From the NCBI GenBank assembly GCA_038400315.1, contig CP151667.1, positions 3,235,174-3,299,173 on the forward strand: a stretch of 64,000 bases of DNA, read 5' to 3'. The notes under the pieces are model-generated. The model ran no database searches and was not told where the DNA came from. It worked only from the letters and a program-made list of their open reading frames with translations. Shown piece by piece: positions 16,942 through 23,923 of this stretch. A program made the translations under genes and the position numbers. Position 1 is the first letter of the stretch. The number at the start of each line of letters is the position of its first letter. This stretch comes from Isosphaeraceae bacterium EP7. GTDB lineage: Bacteria > Planctomycetota > Planctomycetia > Isosphaerales > Isosphaeraceae.

Positions 16942-17730
16942 TCAGCGGGAGGCACTCGACCTCGATCGAGAGTAGCCGGCGAGGCCGGCCAGTCCCACGG
17001 CCAGGAGGGCCAGCGATCGGGGCTCGGGCACCACCGCGTTGGTGAACTGGAAGTCGGAGATCGACTGGATCGAGCTGGTCCCGCCCGACGAGCCGGTGAA
17101 CCCCACGTAGGCCGTATTGGCGCCGAGGACCTTCGGCAAGTCGGTCACGTAGCTGGTCGAGTACGTCGCCAGGGTCTTCAGGTCAGTGAGGGTCTCCGAG
17201 AGCAGCTTTCCGTCATAGGTCAGGTCGACCCGGATCTTGTTGCCGCTGGAGATGTCCACCTTGCCGGTCGAGTTGTACTCGTAGGTCTGGCCATCGGTCC
17301 GGAAATTCGTCCCGATCGTATAGGCCTTGTAGATGTTCAGCTCGATCGCGGCGCTCGGCGCCATGTATCCGTAACCGAGTGCCCCGCCCATGCCGCCCAG
17401 CGCCTCGGCCCCGGCCTTGTCGTTCTGGAGGACGAAGGCGACGCCGTCGGAAAGCCTTGAGCCCGCGGCCTGATAGGTGAACGAGGCGCGAAACGTGCTG
17501 ATGTCCTGGGTCGTCTTGGCGAACGCCGATCGCGCCTCGAACGAGCCGTCGTCGGTCAGGGTCAGAACGCCCTTCGAGACCGTCGCCCCGCCGTTGAGCG
17601 AATAGCCATCTTCGCTCTTGCCGAAGCCGATCAGGTCCGCCGACGCCGTCGAAGCCGACAGCAACCCCAGGGCGGCGATGAGGGCGCCCGGCACGAACGG
17701 CCGCGATGCAGGACGATCCATGAACAGCAT
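16942..17730 (-). CDS. PEP-CTERM protein with L-type lectin-like domain
   Basis: 262 residues from the ATG at 17730; the Met at position 4 is an alternative. A signal peptide (ending ASTASA) leads into a beta-sandwich with legume-lectin hallmarks: DGVAFVLQND, GYMAPSAAIELNIY, and TAYVGFTGSSGG followed by an IQSISDFQF strand. The end is VVPEPRSLALLAVGLAGLAG followed by an Arg/Ser tail, the PEP-CTERM sorting signal. It is therefore probably an exported carbohydrate-binding or structural protein. The Asp and Asn metal ligands of true lectins are only partly visible, so sugar binding is unproven. It diverges from the M14-like gene. Confidence 0.87.
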   Translation of the reverse strand: MLFMDRPASRPFVPGALIAALGLLSASTASADLIGFGKSEDGYSLNGGATVSKGVLTLTDDGSFEARSAFAKTTQDISTFRASFTYQAAGSRLSDGVAFVLQNDKAGAEALGGMGGALGYGYMAPSAAIELNIYKAYTIGTNFRTDGQTYEYNSTGKVDISSGNKIRVDLTYDGKLLSETLTDLKTLATYSTSYVTDLPKVLGANTAYVGFTGSSGGTSSIQSISDFQFTNAVVPEPRSLALLAVGLAGLAGYSRSRSSASR

Positions 17731-18038
17731 GTCGAATCTCGCTTCAGCGTGAGTTGGGCGTGACGATCGGCGTCGATCGAATGGGCCGCCTGACGCGGCA
17801 CGGGATGATTCCCGGGAACTCTAGGCTTTGGATGGGGCCCTGGAGCCGGCCGATCGTGTCGATTCCTGGCAACACTGAGGTGGCCCCCTCGAACGGTGAG
17901 GCCGATCGCGGAAGGCGATACACGCCTGGACGCCGGGCCGCGTGCCCTGCCCATGCCATTCTGGTAACCTGGGGTCTCGTTGCGGCGCGAGACTGGCGGC
18001 GCCGACCCGATTCGCGATGGTCATCCTGGGCCGCTGGC

Positions 18039-19982
18039 ATGAAGCTCGACACAAGGTTCGCCCCCGCACTCAGGGGGTCGGCCCTCGCCCTGATCCTCGC
18101 GACCATGGGGCCCCAGGCCGCGCGGGCCCAGCAGGAAAGTCGGCCCGAGACGAAGCCTGCGCAAACCGATCCGGCGACACAGCCGCCGCCCCAGCTTCCG
18201 TCGCTCTTCCCCGCGGGCTATCTCGACGACGAGGGGCTCACCGCCGCGCTCCGGCGTGAGGCGACGGCCCACCCGCAGGTGGTCACGCTCAGCTCGCTGG
18301 CCCGGACCGGGCAGGGGCGGGACGTCTGGATGGTCCGGATCGGCCGGCCCGAGGACGCGGGCGCGGACGCCGGGGCTCCCAAGCCCGACCCGCGCGCCCG
18401 CCGCGTCGGGCCCAGGCCGGCCATCCTCATCGTCGCCAACCTGGAGGCCGACCACCTCGTCGGCTCGCAGGTCGCCCTGGGAATGATCCGCTCATTGGCG
18501 GCCGCCGACGGCCAGGACCAGGCCGTCACCCGGATGCTCGACCGCACCACGATCTACGTCGTCCCCAGGCTCAACCCCGACGGCGCAGAGCGCAACCTGG
18601 AGCTGCCCCGCGGCGACTTCCGCGCCAACCTGAGGGCGATGGACCGCGACCGCGACGGCCGGTCGAACGAGGACGGGCCCGACGACCTCAACGCCGACGG
18701 ATTGCTGCTGAGGCTCCGCCTGAAGGACGCCAAGGCGACGCTCGTCGCCGACGAGAAGGACCCGCGCATCGTGCGCAAGGCCGACCCCGCCAAGGGGGAA
18801 GAGCCCATCTATTCGGAGCAATCCGAGGGGATCGACAACGACGACGACGGGCAGTCGAACGAGGACCCATCCGGGGGCGTGAACCTCAACCGGAACTGGC
18901 CGCACAACTGGACGGAATTCGACCCGGAGGCCGGCTTCAGCCCCGCCAGCGAGCCCGAGACCCTGGGCCTGATCCGGTTCGCCTTCGACCACCCCGAGAT
19001 CGCCGCCGTCTGGTCGTTCTCGCTCAACGACAACCTGAAGGCCGAGCCCAAGAAGCCGGGCTCCGACCTGGACGACGCCGACTTACCCTACGTCGCCGAG
19101 CTCTCTCGCCTTTACAACAAGGCCCTGGGCGCCAAGGCCTCTGAGGTCACGGTCAACGCCCCCGCGCCCCCGCGCAATGGCGACGCCGCCAAGGCCGAGG
19201 CGACGAAGGCCGATGCCACCAAGCCCGCCACGGCCGCCGCGCCCAGGCCCCGGACCGCCCTGAACCTGGCCGCCGCCACCGGCACGCCCGCGCCTGGGGC
19301 CACCTCCGATGGTGCCCTGAGCGAGTGGGCCTATCACCAGTTCGGCGCCCTCGGCCTGTCGACCCGCCTCTGGTCGGTCCCGGACATCCCCGAGCCCGCC
19401 GCGGGGCAGGCCAAGCCGCCGTCCGACGGCGAGGCTCGCTGGCTCTACTGGAACGACAACGTCGCCGGCGGCCGCGCGTTCGTCCCGTTCGTCAAGCTGG
19501 ACCACCCCACCTTGGGCGCCGTCGAGGTGGGGGGCTGGCGGCCAGGCGTCCGGCTCAATCCGCCGGCCGACCTCATCCCGGCGCTGGTCGAGGCGCACTC
19601 CACCTTCCTGGCCGACCTGGCCGCCCGGCTGCCCCGGCTGGAGTGGGTCGACGTCAAGGCCGAGCCCAAAGGTGGGGGGCTTGTCGAGGTCGTCGCCACG
19701 GTGCGCAACGCAGGCGACCTGCCCACCGCCACCGCCCAGGCGGCCAAGATCCGCAGGACCGAGCCGGTCCTCGTGCGGCTCGACCCCGCGGGCGCCACGA
19801 TCCTTGCCGGCCGCCCCCTGGAACGGATCGACGTCCTCGCCGCATCGGGGGGCCGCAAGGAGCTGCGCTGGCTCCTGCTCCTGCCGGCCAATGCACCCCA
19901 GGGCGCGGAACCGCCGACCATCACGCTCGACGCCGCCGCGCCGCGGGCCGGCCGGGCACGGGCCAGCGTGCCGCTGCGTTAG
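18039..19982 (+). CDS. M14 carboxypeptidase-like protein, probably catalytically inactive
   Basis: 647 residues from the ATG at 18039, which starts a signal peptide ending AARAQ. The fold follows the M14 zinc carboxypeptidase family and aligns by eye with the paralog at 22121. The zinc site is gone: the HxxE position reads LEADHL (His to Ala137, Glu to Leu140), the third ligand is Ser328 (WSFSLND), and the catalytic Glu position is Arg443 (STRLW). Two acidic loops resembling calcium-binding repeats (DRDRDGRSNEDG and DNDDDGQSNED) are retained. A low-complexity Ala/Lys/Pro linker (about 375-420) is inserted. The likely role is binding peptides or glycans without cleavage, which is inference. 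A perfect hairpin terminator follows. Confidence 0.85.
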   Translation: MKLDTRFAPALRGSALALILATMGPQAARAQQESRPETKPAQTDPATQPPPQLPSLFPAGYLDDEGLTAALRREATAHPQVVTLSSLARTGQGRDVWMVRIGRPEDAGADAGAPKPDPRARRVGPRPAILIVANLEADHLVGSQVALGMIRSLAAADGQDQAVTRMLDRTTIYVVPRLNPDGAERNLELPRGDFRANLRAMDRDRDGRSNEDGPDDLNADGLLLRLRLKDAKATLVADEKDPRIVRKADPAKGEEPIYSEQSEGIDNDDDGQSNEDPSGGVNLNRNWPHNWTEFDPEAGFSPASEPETLGLIRFAFDHPEIAAVWSFSLNDNLKAEPKKPGSDLDDADLPYVAELSRLYNKALGAKASEVTVNAPAPPRNGDAAKAEATKADATKPATAAAPRPRTALNLAAATGTPAPGATSDGALSEWAYHQFGALGLSTRLWSVPDIPEPAAGQAKPPSDGEARWLYWNDNVAGGRAFVPFVKLDHPTLGAVEVGGWRPGVRLNPPADLIPALVEAHSTFLADLAARLPRLEWVDVKAEPKGGGLVEVVATVRNAGDLPTATAQAAKIRRTEPVLVRLDPAGATILAGRPLERIDVLAASGGRKELRWLLLLPANAPQGAEPPTITLDAAAPRAGRARASVPLR

Positions 19983-19991
19983 AGACGAGAA

Positions 19992-20021
19992 GCCCCCCTC
20001 GACATCGTCGTCGAGGGGGGC
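19992..20021. terminator. Bidirectional terminator hairpin
   Basis: A perfect 12-bp stem (GCCCCCCTCGAC against GTCGAGGGGGGC) with a 6-nt loop lies between two convergent genes, 9 bp after the stop of the M14-like gene and 42 bp from the end of the PEP-CTERM gene. Confidence 0.8.
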
Positions 20022-20063
20022 ACGCCGGGTCGCCCAGAGCCCGGCGCCTCGGGTCGTCGAGGG

Positions 20064-20924
20064 TCAGGCGAGGCGGGCGCGGGCCCGCCTCGCGGTGGCC
20101 AGGCCCATCAGGCCCAGCCCCGTCAGCATCGAGATCAGGGTCGCCGGCTCGGGCACCGCCGCGTGGATCACGCCCACGCCGCTGAGGTCGAATCCGCTCG
20201 ACGCGAAGGGGGTCTTGAACGGGTCGTTGATCAGGTGCCCCTGCGAGTCGTACGACCCATAAGCCGGGTCGATCGAGCCTATCACGTCGGTGATGCGCAC
20301 CTGGGTCACGAGGTTGATATCAAGCAGCGGCGAGAGGCCGGCCAGATCCTGGAGGTCGAAGCCCGTGCCGTAGCCACCGATGTATTTGCCGGCGAGGTTC
20401 GACAGATTCGAGGCGTCAAGCAGCGAGAATCCTCCGACCTGGGTGACCGTCTGGGTCAGTGAGATCGACGGGAACTCGAAGAAGTGCACTCCGTCAGACG
20501 ACACCGAGACGAGGCCCAGCTCCAGCAACGCCATCCCGGCGCCCCCCGAGAGGAACCCGTTTTCGAAGACCGCGAAGTCGGCCCCCGCGCCGTTGGCGAT
20601 CGCCCGGTCGAAGCCCAGCGTGATCGAGCCGCCGTCGCCCAGCGACACCAGATGCGACGACCCCGTGGCCGCGCCTAGGACATCGGTCGGCTTGCCAATC
20701 GACGCGAGCGGGCTGGACGGGTTGCTGATGTCCTGCGGCCCCCGCCTGAACGAGACGACCGACGAGGCCCAGCCGGTGATCAGGGGGCTGAGCGCCGAGA
20801 TCGCGCCGGTCGAGCCCGGCTGCCCAACCTGCGGGTCGAATGGCCCCGCCAGCGCCTCGGGGGCGTTTGAAACCAGGGCCAGGGCCAGCACACCGCGCCA
20901 TCCGAACATCAACAAAATCCGCAT
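20064..20924 (-). CDS. PEP-CTERM surface protein downstream of a cobalamin riboswitch
   Basis: 286 residues from the ATG at 20924, with GGAGAG 6 bp upstream; the Mets at 20942 and 20948 are less well placed. A signal peptide (ending EALA) is followed by a domain seen in proteins loosely annotated as cell surface proteins: a glycine-rich stretch with GSITLGFDRAI and FAVFENGF, then GGYGTGFDLQDLAG, VTQVRITDVIGS, and DSQGHLINDP leading to SGFDLSGVGVIH. It ends in VPEPATLISMLTGLGLMGLA plus an Arg-rich tail, a clear PEP-CTERM signal. It is the only gene downstream of the B12 riboswitch on this strand, so a role in capturing cobalamin or another corrinoid at the cell surface is proposed. That function is inference; the riboswitch and sorting signal are seen directly. 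Confidence 0.87.
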   Translation of the reverse strand: MRILLMFGWRGVLALALVSNAPEALAGPFDPQVGQPGSTGAISALSPLITGWASSVVSFRRGPQDISNPSSPLASIGKPTDVLGAATGSSHLVSLGDGGSITLGFDRAIANGAGADFAVFENGFLSGGAGMALLELGLVSVSSDGVHFFEFPSISLTQTVTQVGGFSLLDASNLSNLAGKYIGGYGTGFDLQDLAGLSPLLDINLVTQVRITDVIGSIDPAYGSYDSQGHLINDPFKTPFASSGFDLSGVGVIHAAVPEPATLISMLTGLGLMGLATARRARARLA

Positions 20925-21439
20925 GCGAACTCTCCAATTCATCTTCATCAATGGGGCGAAGGCGCGCCGCCCCCCGCCGATTGGCGCGGCGTCGCACGGC
21001 CACGCCCGGTGGGCGAAGGCGCACGCGGCCGCATCCCGCACGGGGAGCGACGCGATCGAGATTCCAGGCCGCGATCCGGGCCGCCTAGACCGGCCCGGGC
21101 ACCCGACCACGCGGGAACGGCGAGCACGCATGGGACCGCGACCAACGCCGGGCGGCCGACGACGAGGCGTCGGGCACGTCCGGCCTTGCGGCGAACGTCG
21201 GGGACGGGCAGGGGCACCACGCGGCGGTGCGGGAGGGGCCGTGTCGTGCGGTCGGGGTCATGGGTGCGGGCTTTCTGCCGGGCCGGGCATCGAGGAGGTC
21301 GGGTCCGCTTCGACCCAAGCCCACGCGGAGCGTGCCCGCCCGGCGCATCATCGGGAATCGCCCCTTCAAAAGGGGGGTCGAAACCCGGATGCGCGTGCGC
21401 ACCCGCCCGGTGGCTTGTCGGCCGAAGCACCGGAACAGT
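20925..21439 (-). other. Long leader between riboswitch and PEP-CTERM gene
   Basis: About 515 nt with no convincing ORF on either strand; frames are open mainly because of high GC. Just after the aptamer, at about 21361-21375, the minus strand can form a short CCCC/GGGG hairpin around TTTTGAA, a possible part of the expression platform. The spacing is longer than usual for a B12 riboswitch, so a small unrecognised gene or a second regulatory element is possible. Confidence 0.5.
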
Positions 21440-21635
21440 CACCCGACGGGCAGGTCTTCTGGCTCTCGGCTCATGACGGACCCCGGGCGGCCTTCCCGCC
21501 TTGCGGCAGTGGCCTTTGTGGATGCCCGGGAGCCTGGCCGATTACAGCGGCGGCCCCGCGACGGATTCTCACCGTCTTCCCTATTCTCCCCCGACCCGCC
21601 CGAAGGCACGCCGGGGGCACCCGTCGAGGCCCGGA
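21440..21635 (-). promoter_or_regulatory. Cobalamin (B12) riboswitch aptamer
   Basis: Read on the minus strand, the canonical conserved pieces occur in order: GGTGCC (about 21632), TAGGGAA, CGGTGAGAATCCG, GCGGGGCCGCCGCTGTAA (down to 21542), CCACTG, GGCGGGAAGGC, then GAGCCAGAAGACCTGCC, the B12 box (about 21449-21466). This is the full class-I cobalamin aptamer layout. Binding of adenosylcobalamin or a relative normally turns off the downstream gene. The only downstream gene on this strand is the PEP-CTERM protein starting at 20924. Confidence 0.95.
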
Positions 21636-22120
21636 TTGCAACGCGCCCGGTGCCCGCCTGTCAACCCCCAGCCGAGGCCCCCGAGGCCCGTCGGGGGCCA
21701 CATCAAGTGCACGGGGGCTTTTCCGACCGGAGCCCTTTGAAACCCACACAAATCCTTTCGCTTTCATTCGCACTCTCTCCGCGAATAAAATGAATAATGC
21801 GATCTCTCTCGCGAAAACCGTTGGCCTTACTCCCGCCGGTTGACGCATTTTCCAGGGAAGGGTCGGCCATCGACGTCGGACCAGGCATCCGGCCTTTATC
21901 GGTCCCCCTGTGAAGCGGAGGCTGTACTGTCCATGCCCGAAGGGGAGCGGGGGACATCCCCGCCATGCATGCCTCGAGCCTTCGAGACGCCGGGCACGCG
22001 GTCGAGTTGAACGCGGTGGGGGGTGGGTGTTTGCCGGGGGGCAAAGGGTCGGTAAGCTCGGTAGGGGCGGAGGGTCGTCGAGAATGTCACGGCGGCCGAA
22101 AATCGGGGGAGGCTCGCGGC
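21636..22120. other. Intergenic region upstream of riboswitch and M14 gene
   Basis: About 485 bp between the 5' end of the riboswitch (minus) and the start of the M14 peptidase (plus). It should hold both promoters. A less GC-rich patch at 21720-21860 is where the riboswitch transcript might start, but no clear -35/-10 pair was identified. Confidence 0.4.
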
Positions 22121-23923
22121 ATGCGGACGGCGTTCGGTCGACGGGGGCTGGGTCTCGGGCTGGGCGTCGCCGCCCTGGCGGCTGGCCTGACGCTGGCCTG
22201 CGCGAGGCCGTCCTCGGCCGCGGTCGAGCCGCCGTTCCCACCCCCCAAGGTGCCGCTGGCGTTCAACCGGCTGTATGACTACCCCGACCTGGTCGCCGCC
22301 ATGCGCAAGCTGGCGGAGGGCCACCCCGACATCATCTCGATGTCCAGCCTGGGCAAGAGCGTCGAGGGGCGCGATCTCTGGTGCCTGACGATCAACAACC
22401 CGGCCACAGGCCCCGACCGCTCCAAGCCGGCCATGTACGTCGACGGCAACGTCCACGGCAATGAGGTCCAGGCCGCCGAGGCCTGCCTCTACCTGGCCTG
22501 GTACCTGGCCGAGAACCGGGGGCGCGTCGAGGAGCTGAGGCGGATCGTCGACGAGCGGGCCTTCTACATCGTGCCGACGGTCAACCCCGACGGCCGGGCC
22601 TACTGGTTCGGCGGCCCCAACACGACCCACAGCTCGCGCAGCGGCAAGACCCCCCGCGATGACGACGGCGACGGGCTGCTCGACGAGGACGGCTACGAGG
22701 ACCTCGACGGCGACGGCCAGGTCACCCAGATGAGGCGCAAGGCCGCGCACGGCCGCTGGAAGGTCTCGGCCGCCGACCCACGCCTGATGGTCCCCGCGGG
22801 CCCCGGCGAGGACGGCCAGTATGAACTGCTGGGCACCGAGGGGAGGGACGACGACGGCGACGGCGAGGTCAACGAGGACCCCCCCGGCGGCTACGACATG
22901 AACCGCGACTGGCCGGCCGACTGGAGGCCCTCGCACGACCAGAGCGGGGCCGGCGACTTCCCGCTCTCGTGGCCCGAGACCCGCGCCCTGGCCGAGTTCA
23001 TCCTGGCCAGGCCTAACATCGCCGGCGTCCAGTCGTTCCACAATGCCGGTGGGATGATCCTGCGCGGGCCAGGGCACCCCTCCAGGCAGCCCCAGTATCC
23101 GTCGGCCGACGACCGCGTGGCCGACCAGATCGGCCGGATGGGCGCCCGGATGCTGCCGTACTACCGCAACATGGTCATCCACCGCGACCTCTACCCGGTT
23201 CGAGGCGGGTTCATCAACTGGACCTACGAGCACCTGGGCATCTTCTCGTTCACCAACGAGCTCTGGAACAACGACCAGCTGATGCCCCGCGCCGAGCCCG
23301 CCCAGGCGCCGGGGAGCACCCTGGGCAGCGCCGTGGGGGCCGACGACGAGGACCGGCAGTTGCTGGCCAACGACCGCCTGCTCTTCGGCACCCAGTTCCG
23401 CCCCTGGAAGGCGGCCAGGCATCCGGTCTACGGCGAGATCGAGATCGGCGGATTCGTCAAGCAGTCGCAGCGCGTCCCGCCGCCGTTCATGATCGAGGAG
23501 ATGTGCCACCGCAACGCCGCATTCGTGCTCTATCACGCCGACCAGATGCCCAGGCTGGAGTGGGACGGCGCGTCGGTGGCCCCGCTGGGGGGCGACGCTT
23601 TTAGCGTGACCGCCTCGGTGCGCAACACGCGGTCGATCCCCAGCGTGGCGCGCCAGGCCTCGCTGCGCAAGATCGGCCTGCCGGACACATTCGGCCTCTC
23701 GGGACCCGGGCTGACGGTCGTCGGCGGCGGCACCCTGGTCGACCGCGACACGGGGCGGGTCGAGCCCGCGGCACGCAACCCGGGCGTGCTCAGGCTGCCC
23801 GAGGGGATCGCCGGCGACTCGACGGCCCGGGTCCGCTGGTTCGTCCGCGGCCGGGGCGAGGCCACGCTCAGGTACGGCTCGCAGAAGGGGGGCAGCTTGA
23901 CCAAGAAAATCGAAATCCGTTAA
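22121..23923 (+). CDS. M14 family zinc carboxypeptidase, secreted
   Basis: 600 residues from the ATG at 22121, with GGGGGAGG upstream; the frame opens earlier but lacks protein character. A signal peptide or lipid-type leader ends near ACARPSSAAV. Zinc ligands are intact: His112 and Glu115 in NVHGNE, and His307 in QSFHNAGG. The catalytic Glu380 is in FTNELWNN. The substrate-binding MNRDWP segment is present. Two acidic loops resembling calcium sites (DDDGDGLLDEDG with DLDGDG, and DDDGDGEVNED) are inserted in the domain. The C-terminal 130 residues look like a beta-sandwich. It should trim C-terminal residues from peptides, or cell-wall peptides, outside the cytoplasm. Its paralog at 18039 has lost all of these residues. 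Confidence 0.92.
   Translation: MRTAFGRRGLGLGLGVAALAAGLTLACARPSSAAVEPPFPPPKVPLAFNRLYDYPDLVAAMRKLAEGHPDIISMSSLGKSVEGRDLWCLTINNPATGPDRSKPAMYVDGNVHGNEVQAAEACLYLAWYLAENRGRVEELRRIVDERAFYIVPTVNPDGRAYWFGGPNTTHSSRSGKTPRDDDGDGLLDEDGYEDLDGDGQVTQMRRKAAHGRWKVSAADPRLMVPAGPGEDGQYELLGTEGRDDDGDGEVNEDPPGGYDMNRDWPADWRPSHDQSGAGDFPLSWPETRALAEFILARPNIAGVQSFHNAGGMILRGPGHPSRQPQYPSADDRVADQIGRMGARMLPYYRNMVIHRDLYPVRGGFINWTYEHLGIFSFTNELWNNDQLMPRAEPAQAPGSTLGSAVGADDEDRQLLANDRLLFGTQFRPWKAARHPVYGEIEIGGFVKQSQRVPPPFMIEEMCHRNAAFVLYHADQMPRLEWDGASVAPLGGDAFSVTASVRNTRSIPSVARQASLRKIGLPDTFGLSGPGLTVVGGGTLVDRDTGRVEPAARNPGVLRLPEGIAGDSTARVRWFVRGRGEATLRYGSQKGGSLTKKIEIR

Follow-up and report, generated by a model that had tools for sequence, protein, structure and literature searches.

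A BtuH-like PEP-CTERM protein behind a cobalamin riboswitch in Isosphaeraceae bacterium EP7, probably a surface protein switched on when vitamin B12 runs short

Why would a planctomycete place the gene for a PEP-CTERM protein under the control of a cobalamin riboswitch? The question is raised by a 64-kb stretch of DNA from Isosphaeraceae bacterium EP7, which was analysed over its whole length and is called the window here. An earlier note on this DNA had described a B12 riboswitch on the minus strand, with a secreted-type PEP-CTERM protein as the only downstream gene, and had interpreted the product as a surface protein for corrinoid capture. Our analysis supports this interpretation, and the earlier note was right in substance. 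The gene probably encodes a surface protein that is switched on when vitamin B12 runs short, and we consider it likely that this protein is a riboswitch-controlled, BtuH-like cobamide binder that is anchored by an exosortase instead of by a lipid.

The riboswitch was confirmed by the covariance-model check for which the earlier note had asked. The single Rfam match across the whole window was RF00174 (Cobalamin) at 21639-21432 on the minus strand, with a score of 94.4 bits (gathering score 31.5, E 3.3e-22), and the alignment was complete, covering model positions 1-189. Riboswitches of this class usually repress when B12 is present. The following features were assigned to this region:

21432-21639, minus strand: complete cobalamin riboswitch aptamer (RF00174)
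21452-21467, minus strand: AGCCAGAAGACCTGCC, at the 3' end of the RF00174 alignment, which by its sequence we take to be the classic B12 box (read from 21467 to 21452)
21409-21431, minus strand: hairpin immediately 3' of the aptamer, with its pairs compared among Isosphaeraceae riboswitches

Taken alone, the hairpin of the window is matched by 14% of shuffles that fold equally well. Comparative analysis showed that a hairpin with at least six of the seven pairs follows the aptamer in 18 of the 32 Isosphaeraceae riboswitches examined, and it was found at all three riboswitches of the EP7 genome. Among nine distinct hairpins, pair types were exchanged at pairs 2, 3 and 6. The hairpin is possibly the regulatory (P13-like) stem of the cobalamin riboswitch class. 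Two other cobalamin riboswitches of the Isosphaeraceae precede metE (L108) and the gene for the large chain of ribonucleotide reductase (L107); these are usual targets of the class, which fits true B12 sensing. A match to the small chain of ribonucleotide reductase after the L112 riboswitch looked incomplete and was discounted.

The features of the gene and of the protein that it encodes are:

20064-20924, minus strand: gene for the BtuH-like PEP-CTERM protein, a predicted surface protein of 286 aa, stop codon included in the coordinates (open reading frame, sequence and Pfam)
20930-20935, minus strand: Shine-Dalgarno-like GGAGAG, five bases ahead of the ATG
20847-20924, minus strand: signal-peptide-like N-terminus ending in EALA (sequence; helix 4-25 of the model in 293-residue numbering)
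20139-20855, minus strand: BtuH-like domain, matched by profile A1 (G000:C1:3255312-3256028) with E 3.6e-100, a value to be read in the knowledge that alignment A1 includes the window protein itself, and assigned also by fold comparison
20085-20159, minus strand: PEP-CTERM sorting signal (PF07589, E 4.6e-5, 23.8 bits, cut-off 20.7)

An earlier in-frame ATG at 21131, which would give 355 aa, was rejected, as the signal-peptide-like stretch begins at 20924. The C-terminal end contains a PEP motif, a transmembrane helix and a basic end, the AlphaFold model has a C-terminal helix at 267-292 (293-residue numbering), and an exosortase gene is present in the EP7 genome (E 1.9e-60). With its motif above the Pfam cut-off and an exosortase in the same genome, the window protein is similar to PEP-CTERM/exosortase surface proteins, and a location at the cell surface may be expected. 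The gene stands alone because the next downstream gene, encoding an M14 carboxypeptidase (17754-19982), lies on the plus strand. Both the solitary position and the sorting signal thus agree with what had been described. A second M14 zinc carboxypeptidase gene (21965-23923, plus strand) is located on the far side of the riboswitch gene, which thus has one such gene of opposite strand on each side. A legume-lectin-like protein is encoded at 16942-17730 on the minus strand (Lectin_legB, E 1.1e-12), and its PEP-CTERM tail is borderline (20.4 bits, cut-off 20.7). Our literature search found no link of PEP-CTERM/exosortase or of DUF1559 to B12 or cobalamin riboswitches; in the literature found on riboswitches and PEP-CTERM, PEP-CTERM genes were reported behind c-di-GMP switches.

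For the one domain of the window protein, no Pfam match above cut-off was obtained, and the hints to known domains were weak (LVIVD, E 0.24; Leptospira LIC_13355 lipoproteins, 21 bits with a cut-off of 120). Membership in DUF4465 was rejected, with no PF14717 match at E up to 1. The AlphaFold model of the protein (mean pLDDT 87.6) was then compared with known structures. The best PDB match in Foldseek was 8blw_B, which is BtuG1 including its BtuH domain (E 2.7e-5). VIA-align placed 7biz, which is BtuH2, on top (Z 12.6, rmsd 3.3, 157 residues, 20% identity) and 8blw_B second (Z 11.6), followed by unrelated CBM32- or discoidin-like rows from 9.5 down; the fold type is thus a common one. CBM32/discoidin-like folds often bind sugars. 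The nearest folds to the window protein are therefore those of BtuH2 (BT_1956, PDB 7BIZ) and of the H domain of BtuG1 (BT_1490, PDB 8BLW), both from B. thetaiotaomicron, and according to passages of PMC10404256 the C-terminal domain of BtuG1 is a homologue of BtuH2.

At the level of sequence the connection to BtuH is weak. Identities in the structural alignments to BtuH domains were 15-20%, and the single window sequence gave no match to the BtuH domain at E up to 1. The profile of the BtuH-like family reached 8blw_B with E 0.0028 over 46 profile positions, and with E 0.0012 over 61 profile positions when four distant members were added. Single-protein PDB searches with the relatives L101 and L065 gave nothing useful, and a search for true BtuH in 15 Bacteroidota genomes returned a member of the close family in each, as well as one OmpA-domain protein. 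The B12 site of BtuH2 is described in passages of PMC8941943, where the ligand residues are given as Gln333, Asn399, Phe401, His476, Tyr510, Trp511, Trp577 and Leu578. Of these, a position was assigned to the phosphate-binding Asn alone, and that tentatively, since the profile alignments cover too little: an Asn of 8blw_B is paired there with the conserved Asn of the motif DFAVFEN, and our guess from the spacing is that the Asn of this FEN motif may correspond to Asn399. Judging by the modelled fold, the domain is most likely related, at some distance, to the domain with which Bacteroides BtuH binds B12. The protein therefore does not appear to be of an unknown kind. Unlike BtuH, the window protein is single-domain, without PKD or propeller parts, and has a PEP-CTERM tail where BtuH has a surface lipoprotein anchor. 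A more distant profile match (L161:1312-2223, E 3.6e-7) was located in an OmpA-domain protein without sign of a B12 role, which indicates that the wider domain superfamily extends beyond B12 loci.

Relatives of the window protein were fetched by protein similarity alone, and the loci of the best 80 of 247 were compared. They came from Isosphaeraceae, Pirellulales, Verrucomicrobiota, Chthonomonas, Bacteroidota and Methyloversatilis. The Rfam scan covered 79 of these best 80 of 247 loci, with L082 left out, and RF00174 was found upstream and on the gene's strand in 63 of the 79, at a distance of 117-4709 nt from the match (median 1287 nt). The other 16 scanned loci had no upstream riboswitch. 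Eight of these count as real negatives because 6 kb of upstream DNA is present; for the rest, 0.3-3.1 kb is available. In the Isosphaeraceae, the BtuH-like family was present in 15 of 45 genomes, a cobalamin riboswitch occurred somewhere in 41 of 45, and every genome with the family (15 of 15) had a same-strand riboswitch 369-3556 nt ahead of the gene. By chance, about 0.0006 riboswitch per gene would be expected within 4 kb.

Same-strand neighbours in the best 80 of 247 loci were counted by profiles built here, with representatives confirmed by Pfam; one of the seven seeds of the DUF4465 profile (L002:2240-2883) was out of frame, and Pfam confirmed DUF4465 in the representatives. DUF4465 was found in 41 of the 80 loci, a TonB receptor in 40 and a BtuG-like DUF5074 protein in 43. 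At least one of the three was present in 56 loci, and seven loci had neither the riboswitch nor any of the three. The check on homologs that the earlier note had proposed was thus positive: they follow B12 riboswitches, and genes of BtuB- and BtuG-like type are frequent beside them. The order riboswitch, DUF4465, BtuH-like gene, TonB receptor and DUF5074 was observed in nine loci (L021, L025, L036, L041, L047, L049, L062, L076 and L081), and the loci beyond those nine had other gene orders. At the window locus only the riboswitch is present, with no partner or transport gene beside the BtuH-like gene. The family resembles BtuH in its control by cobalamin riboswitches and, in many Bacteroidota relatives, in its BtuB/BtuG-type neighbours; unlike BtuH, it occurs outside gut Bacteroidetes, and no BtuB partner was found in the EP7 genome. 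Many bacteria rely on scavenged B12, and the surface-capture studies cited here are mainly on gut Bacteroides. The loci described here would extend the BtuH-like kind of binder to phyla of soil and water.

The anchor appears to have been exchanged within the family. Type IX secretion tails were found in 55 of 81 full-length proteins and PEP-CTERM motifs in 15; a DUF4465 domain is included in 10 and DUF4430 in two. Long forms of 667-1324 aa are encoded after riboswitches in L015, L016, L019, L039 and L065 (Bacteroidales/Bacteroidetes), and the one in L019 contains DUF4430. In L010 (5060-5998) and also in L013, both from Verrucomicrobiota, a 312-aa PEP-CTERM protein without known domain is encoded between the riboswitch and the BtuH-like gene, and it is possible that this is a further B12-related surface protein.

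The frequent association with DUF4465 suggests another reading, in which the window protein is part of a surface set that responds to B12 but has no cobamide binding of its own, and assists the DUF4465 binders structurally or in docking. Similar to the window protein, BtuJ/DUF4465 proteins (IPR027828) are secreted and riboswitch-linked, and members of the two are located in the same loci or fused, although the window protein represents a separate family. Passages of PMC13398666 report that eight distantly related DUF4465 members bind B12, and that TonB and propeller genes are their neighbours; the term PEP-CTERM is absent from the text of that paper. The presence of DUF4465 beside the gene in 41 of the best 80 of 247 loci, or as a fusion, speaks for such a partner, as do the CBM32/discoidin-like folds among the structural matches. 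In addition, passages of PMC12751083 describe BtuL and BtuK2, which are uptake-operon proteins of B. theta, as showing no binding. We regard a partner without cobamide binding as rather unlikely, however, since the top two hits of the structural comparison are BtuH domains that bind B12, clearly ahead of the rest. The gene is also often alone under its own switch: of the 15 family-bearing Isosphaeraceae genomes, six have a DUF4465 match within 1.5 kb on the gene's strand and nine have none.

A long leader lies between the aptamer and the gene:

20925-21431, minus strand: leader from the aptamer to the start codon, 507 nt (sequence; folding, terminator, promoter and Rfam scans)

The gap had previously been given as 515 nt, called unusual and thought to hold a possible second element. 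A long gap is indeed present, but with the aptamer end set slightly differently it measures 507 nt from there to the ATG. Switch and domain are 369-631 nt apart in nine of the 15 Isosphaeraceae genomes that carry the family. In a comparison of leaders from which those of L091 and L097 were left out, this size was common as well, and the long leader is thus usual for the BtuH-like family and no peculiarity of the window gene. Rfam and a terminator search gave no sign of a second regulatory element in it, and neither did folding, which was no better than that of shuffled sequence (z -0.25). No terminator-like expression platform was found in the leader either, and this, together with its length, would be compatible with a real riboswitch whose transcript does not include the gene, the gene being driven by a promoter within the 507 nt. 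We consider such an arrangement very unlikely, because a search for sigma-70-like promoters, the one promoter type within its scope, found none on either strand of 19950-21990, and because a same-strand switch is located ahead of the family in every one of the 15 Isosphaeraceae genomes that carry it. Chance placement under the riboswitch of a PEP-CTERM protein that binds carbohydrate or matrix is hardly credible, despite the resemblance to CBM32 and discoidin domains and the lectin-like gene with a borderline PEP-CTERM tail nearby (16942-17730), given the linkage to riboswitches or B12 uptake in Planctomycetota, Verrucomicrobiota, Bacteroidota and Methyloversatilis.

The putative capture of cobamides by the window protein can be considered further in the context of the EP7 genome (99.9% complete), which contains one match to the BtuH-like family and three cobalamin riboswitches. 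The second riboswitch (G000:C1:3053038-3053236) precedes two tandem DUF4465 genes (L134:3039-5501), both of which encode the motif MNTPAY and PEP-CTERM-like tails slightly below the cut-off of 20.7 (19.6 and 18.3 bits); the corresponding binding motif of BtuJ is MNTPSY according to passages of PMC12751083. The third riboswitch (G000:C1:3446157-3446364) precedes a gene for a DUF1559 prepilin-like protein (L135:3483-4472, plus strand). In four other Isosphaeraceae genomes genes of all three kinds were observed behind a single riboswitch, in the order DUF1559, DUF4465 and BtuH-like (G040, G042 and G011) or DUF1559, BtuH-like and DUF4465 (G043). Given this one-switch arrangement, EP7 seems to have this set of genes distributed over three units.

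No match to the TonB receptor PF00593 was found in the EP7 genome (the control search was positive in 3 of 14 known genomes), nor to the FecCD permease PF01032 of the BtuC type (control positive in 13 of 14) or to CbiC (control positive in 7 of 14). MetH is present, and with no match to CbiC, EP7 should therefore need to import B12; with no match to a TonB receptor or to FecCD, the import should follow a route other than BtuB-BtuC. The window gene thus shares the ligand system and the riboswitch class with BtuBFCD/BtuBG uptake, unlike which EP7 has no PF00593 or PF01032 match. We propose that with enough cobamide the riboswitch would repress the window gene. The protein, when made, would be exported via its signal peptide, the exosortase/PEP-CTERM route would sort and anchor it, and its BtuH-like domain would capture scarce cobamides at the cell surface. 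It may act jointly with the two DUF4465 proteins and the DUF1559 prepilin-like protein under the two other riboswitches, and the captured cobamide would be handed over to an importer.

Since DUF1559 is abundant in EP7, with 111 match rows in the genome, some of which are pieces of one gene, its adjacency to riboswitches could be due to chance. According to passages of PMC10632474, DUF1559 is the largest paralog group of Planctopirus limnophila, with 68 members of unknown function. Of the 92 Isosphaeraceae riboswitches, 32 were mapped with their loci, and 19 of these have a match to DUF1559 or a related domain within about 1.5 kb downstream. A tree of 48 proteins placed 20 of the 26 riboswitch-linked ones in a single group (SH-aLRT 98) that contained none of the 22 unlinked ones; it included the EP7 protein and one from Pirellulales, and six linked proteins were located outside it. 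The unlinked rows were 20 of the about 100 EP7 paralogs and two neighbours. Seven second copies of loci and seven verrucomicrobial and Chthonomonas rows were left out of the count, as were L109 and an 888-residue neighbour in L187 because of their length. The linkage label changed four times on the tree, compared with a shuffled mean of 16.1, and none of 500 shuffles was as low, a signal to which near-copies add. The riboswitch-linked DUF1559 protein of EP7 therefore groups with linked proteins of other genera and not with the 20 sampled paralogs of its own genome.

A matching prepilin-like gene was found, among the best 80 of 247 loci, in 11 of 11 from Verrucomicrobiota and in the single loci from Pirellulales and Chthonomonas, and in none of four from Isosphaeraceae and none of 60 from Bacteroidota; this count is partly circular because six of the 13 matching loci supplied seeds of the profile. 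The group had first emerged from unsupervised clustering, and Pfam N_methyl was found in three of four members scanned (L040, L010 and L012, not L058). TonB receptors, again among the best 80 of 247 loci and with groups taken from record titles, were present in 36 of 60 from Bacteroidota, 3 of 3 from Methyloversatilis, 1 of 11 from Verrucomicrobiota and 0 of 4 from Isosphaeraceae. For the riboswitch-linked DUF1559 protein AlphaFold gave a poor model (pLDDT 42.5), and this was set aside. A tentative idea, which we hold to be possible but doubtful, is that Planctomycetota, and in a similar form Verrucomicrobiota, take up cobamides without TonB, with exosortase-anchored BtuH-like and DUF4465 proteins for capture and a DUF1559 subfamily in place of BtuB-BtuG in display or transfer. 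If true, this would be the first function for part of DUF1559, a very large planctomycete family. The riboswitch marks out a DUF1559 subfamily and thereby provides a testable handle on the family, which is the boldest lead from this locus. Elsewhere in the EP7 genome, near G000:C1 6066056, L086:772-3240 encodes a hybrid histidine kinase that combines B12-binding domains with HATPase and receiver, possibly a cobamide- or light-sensing regulator.
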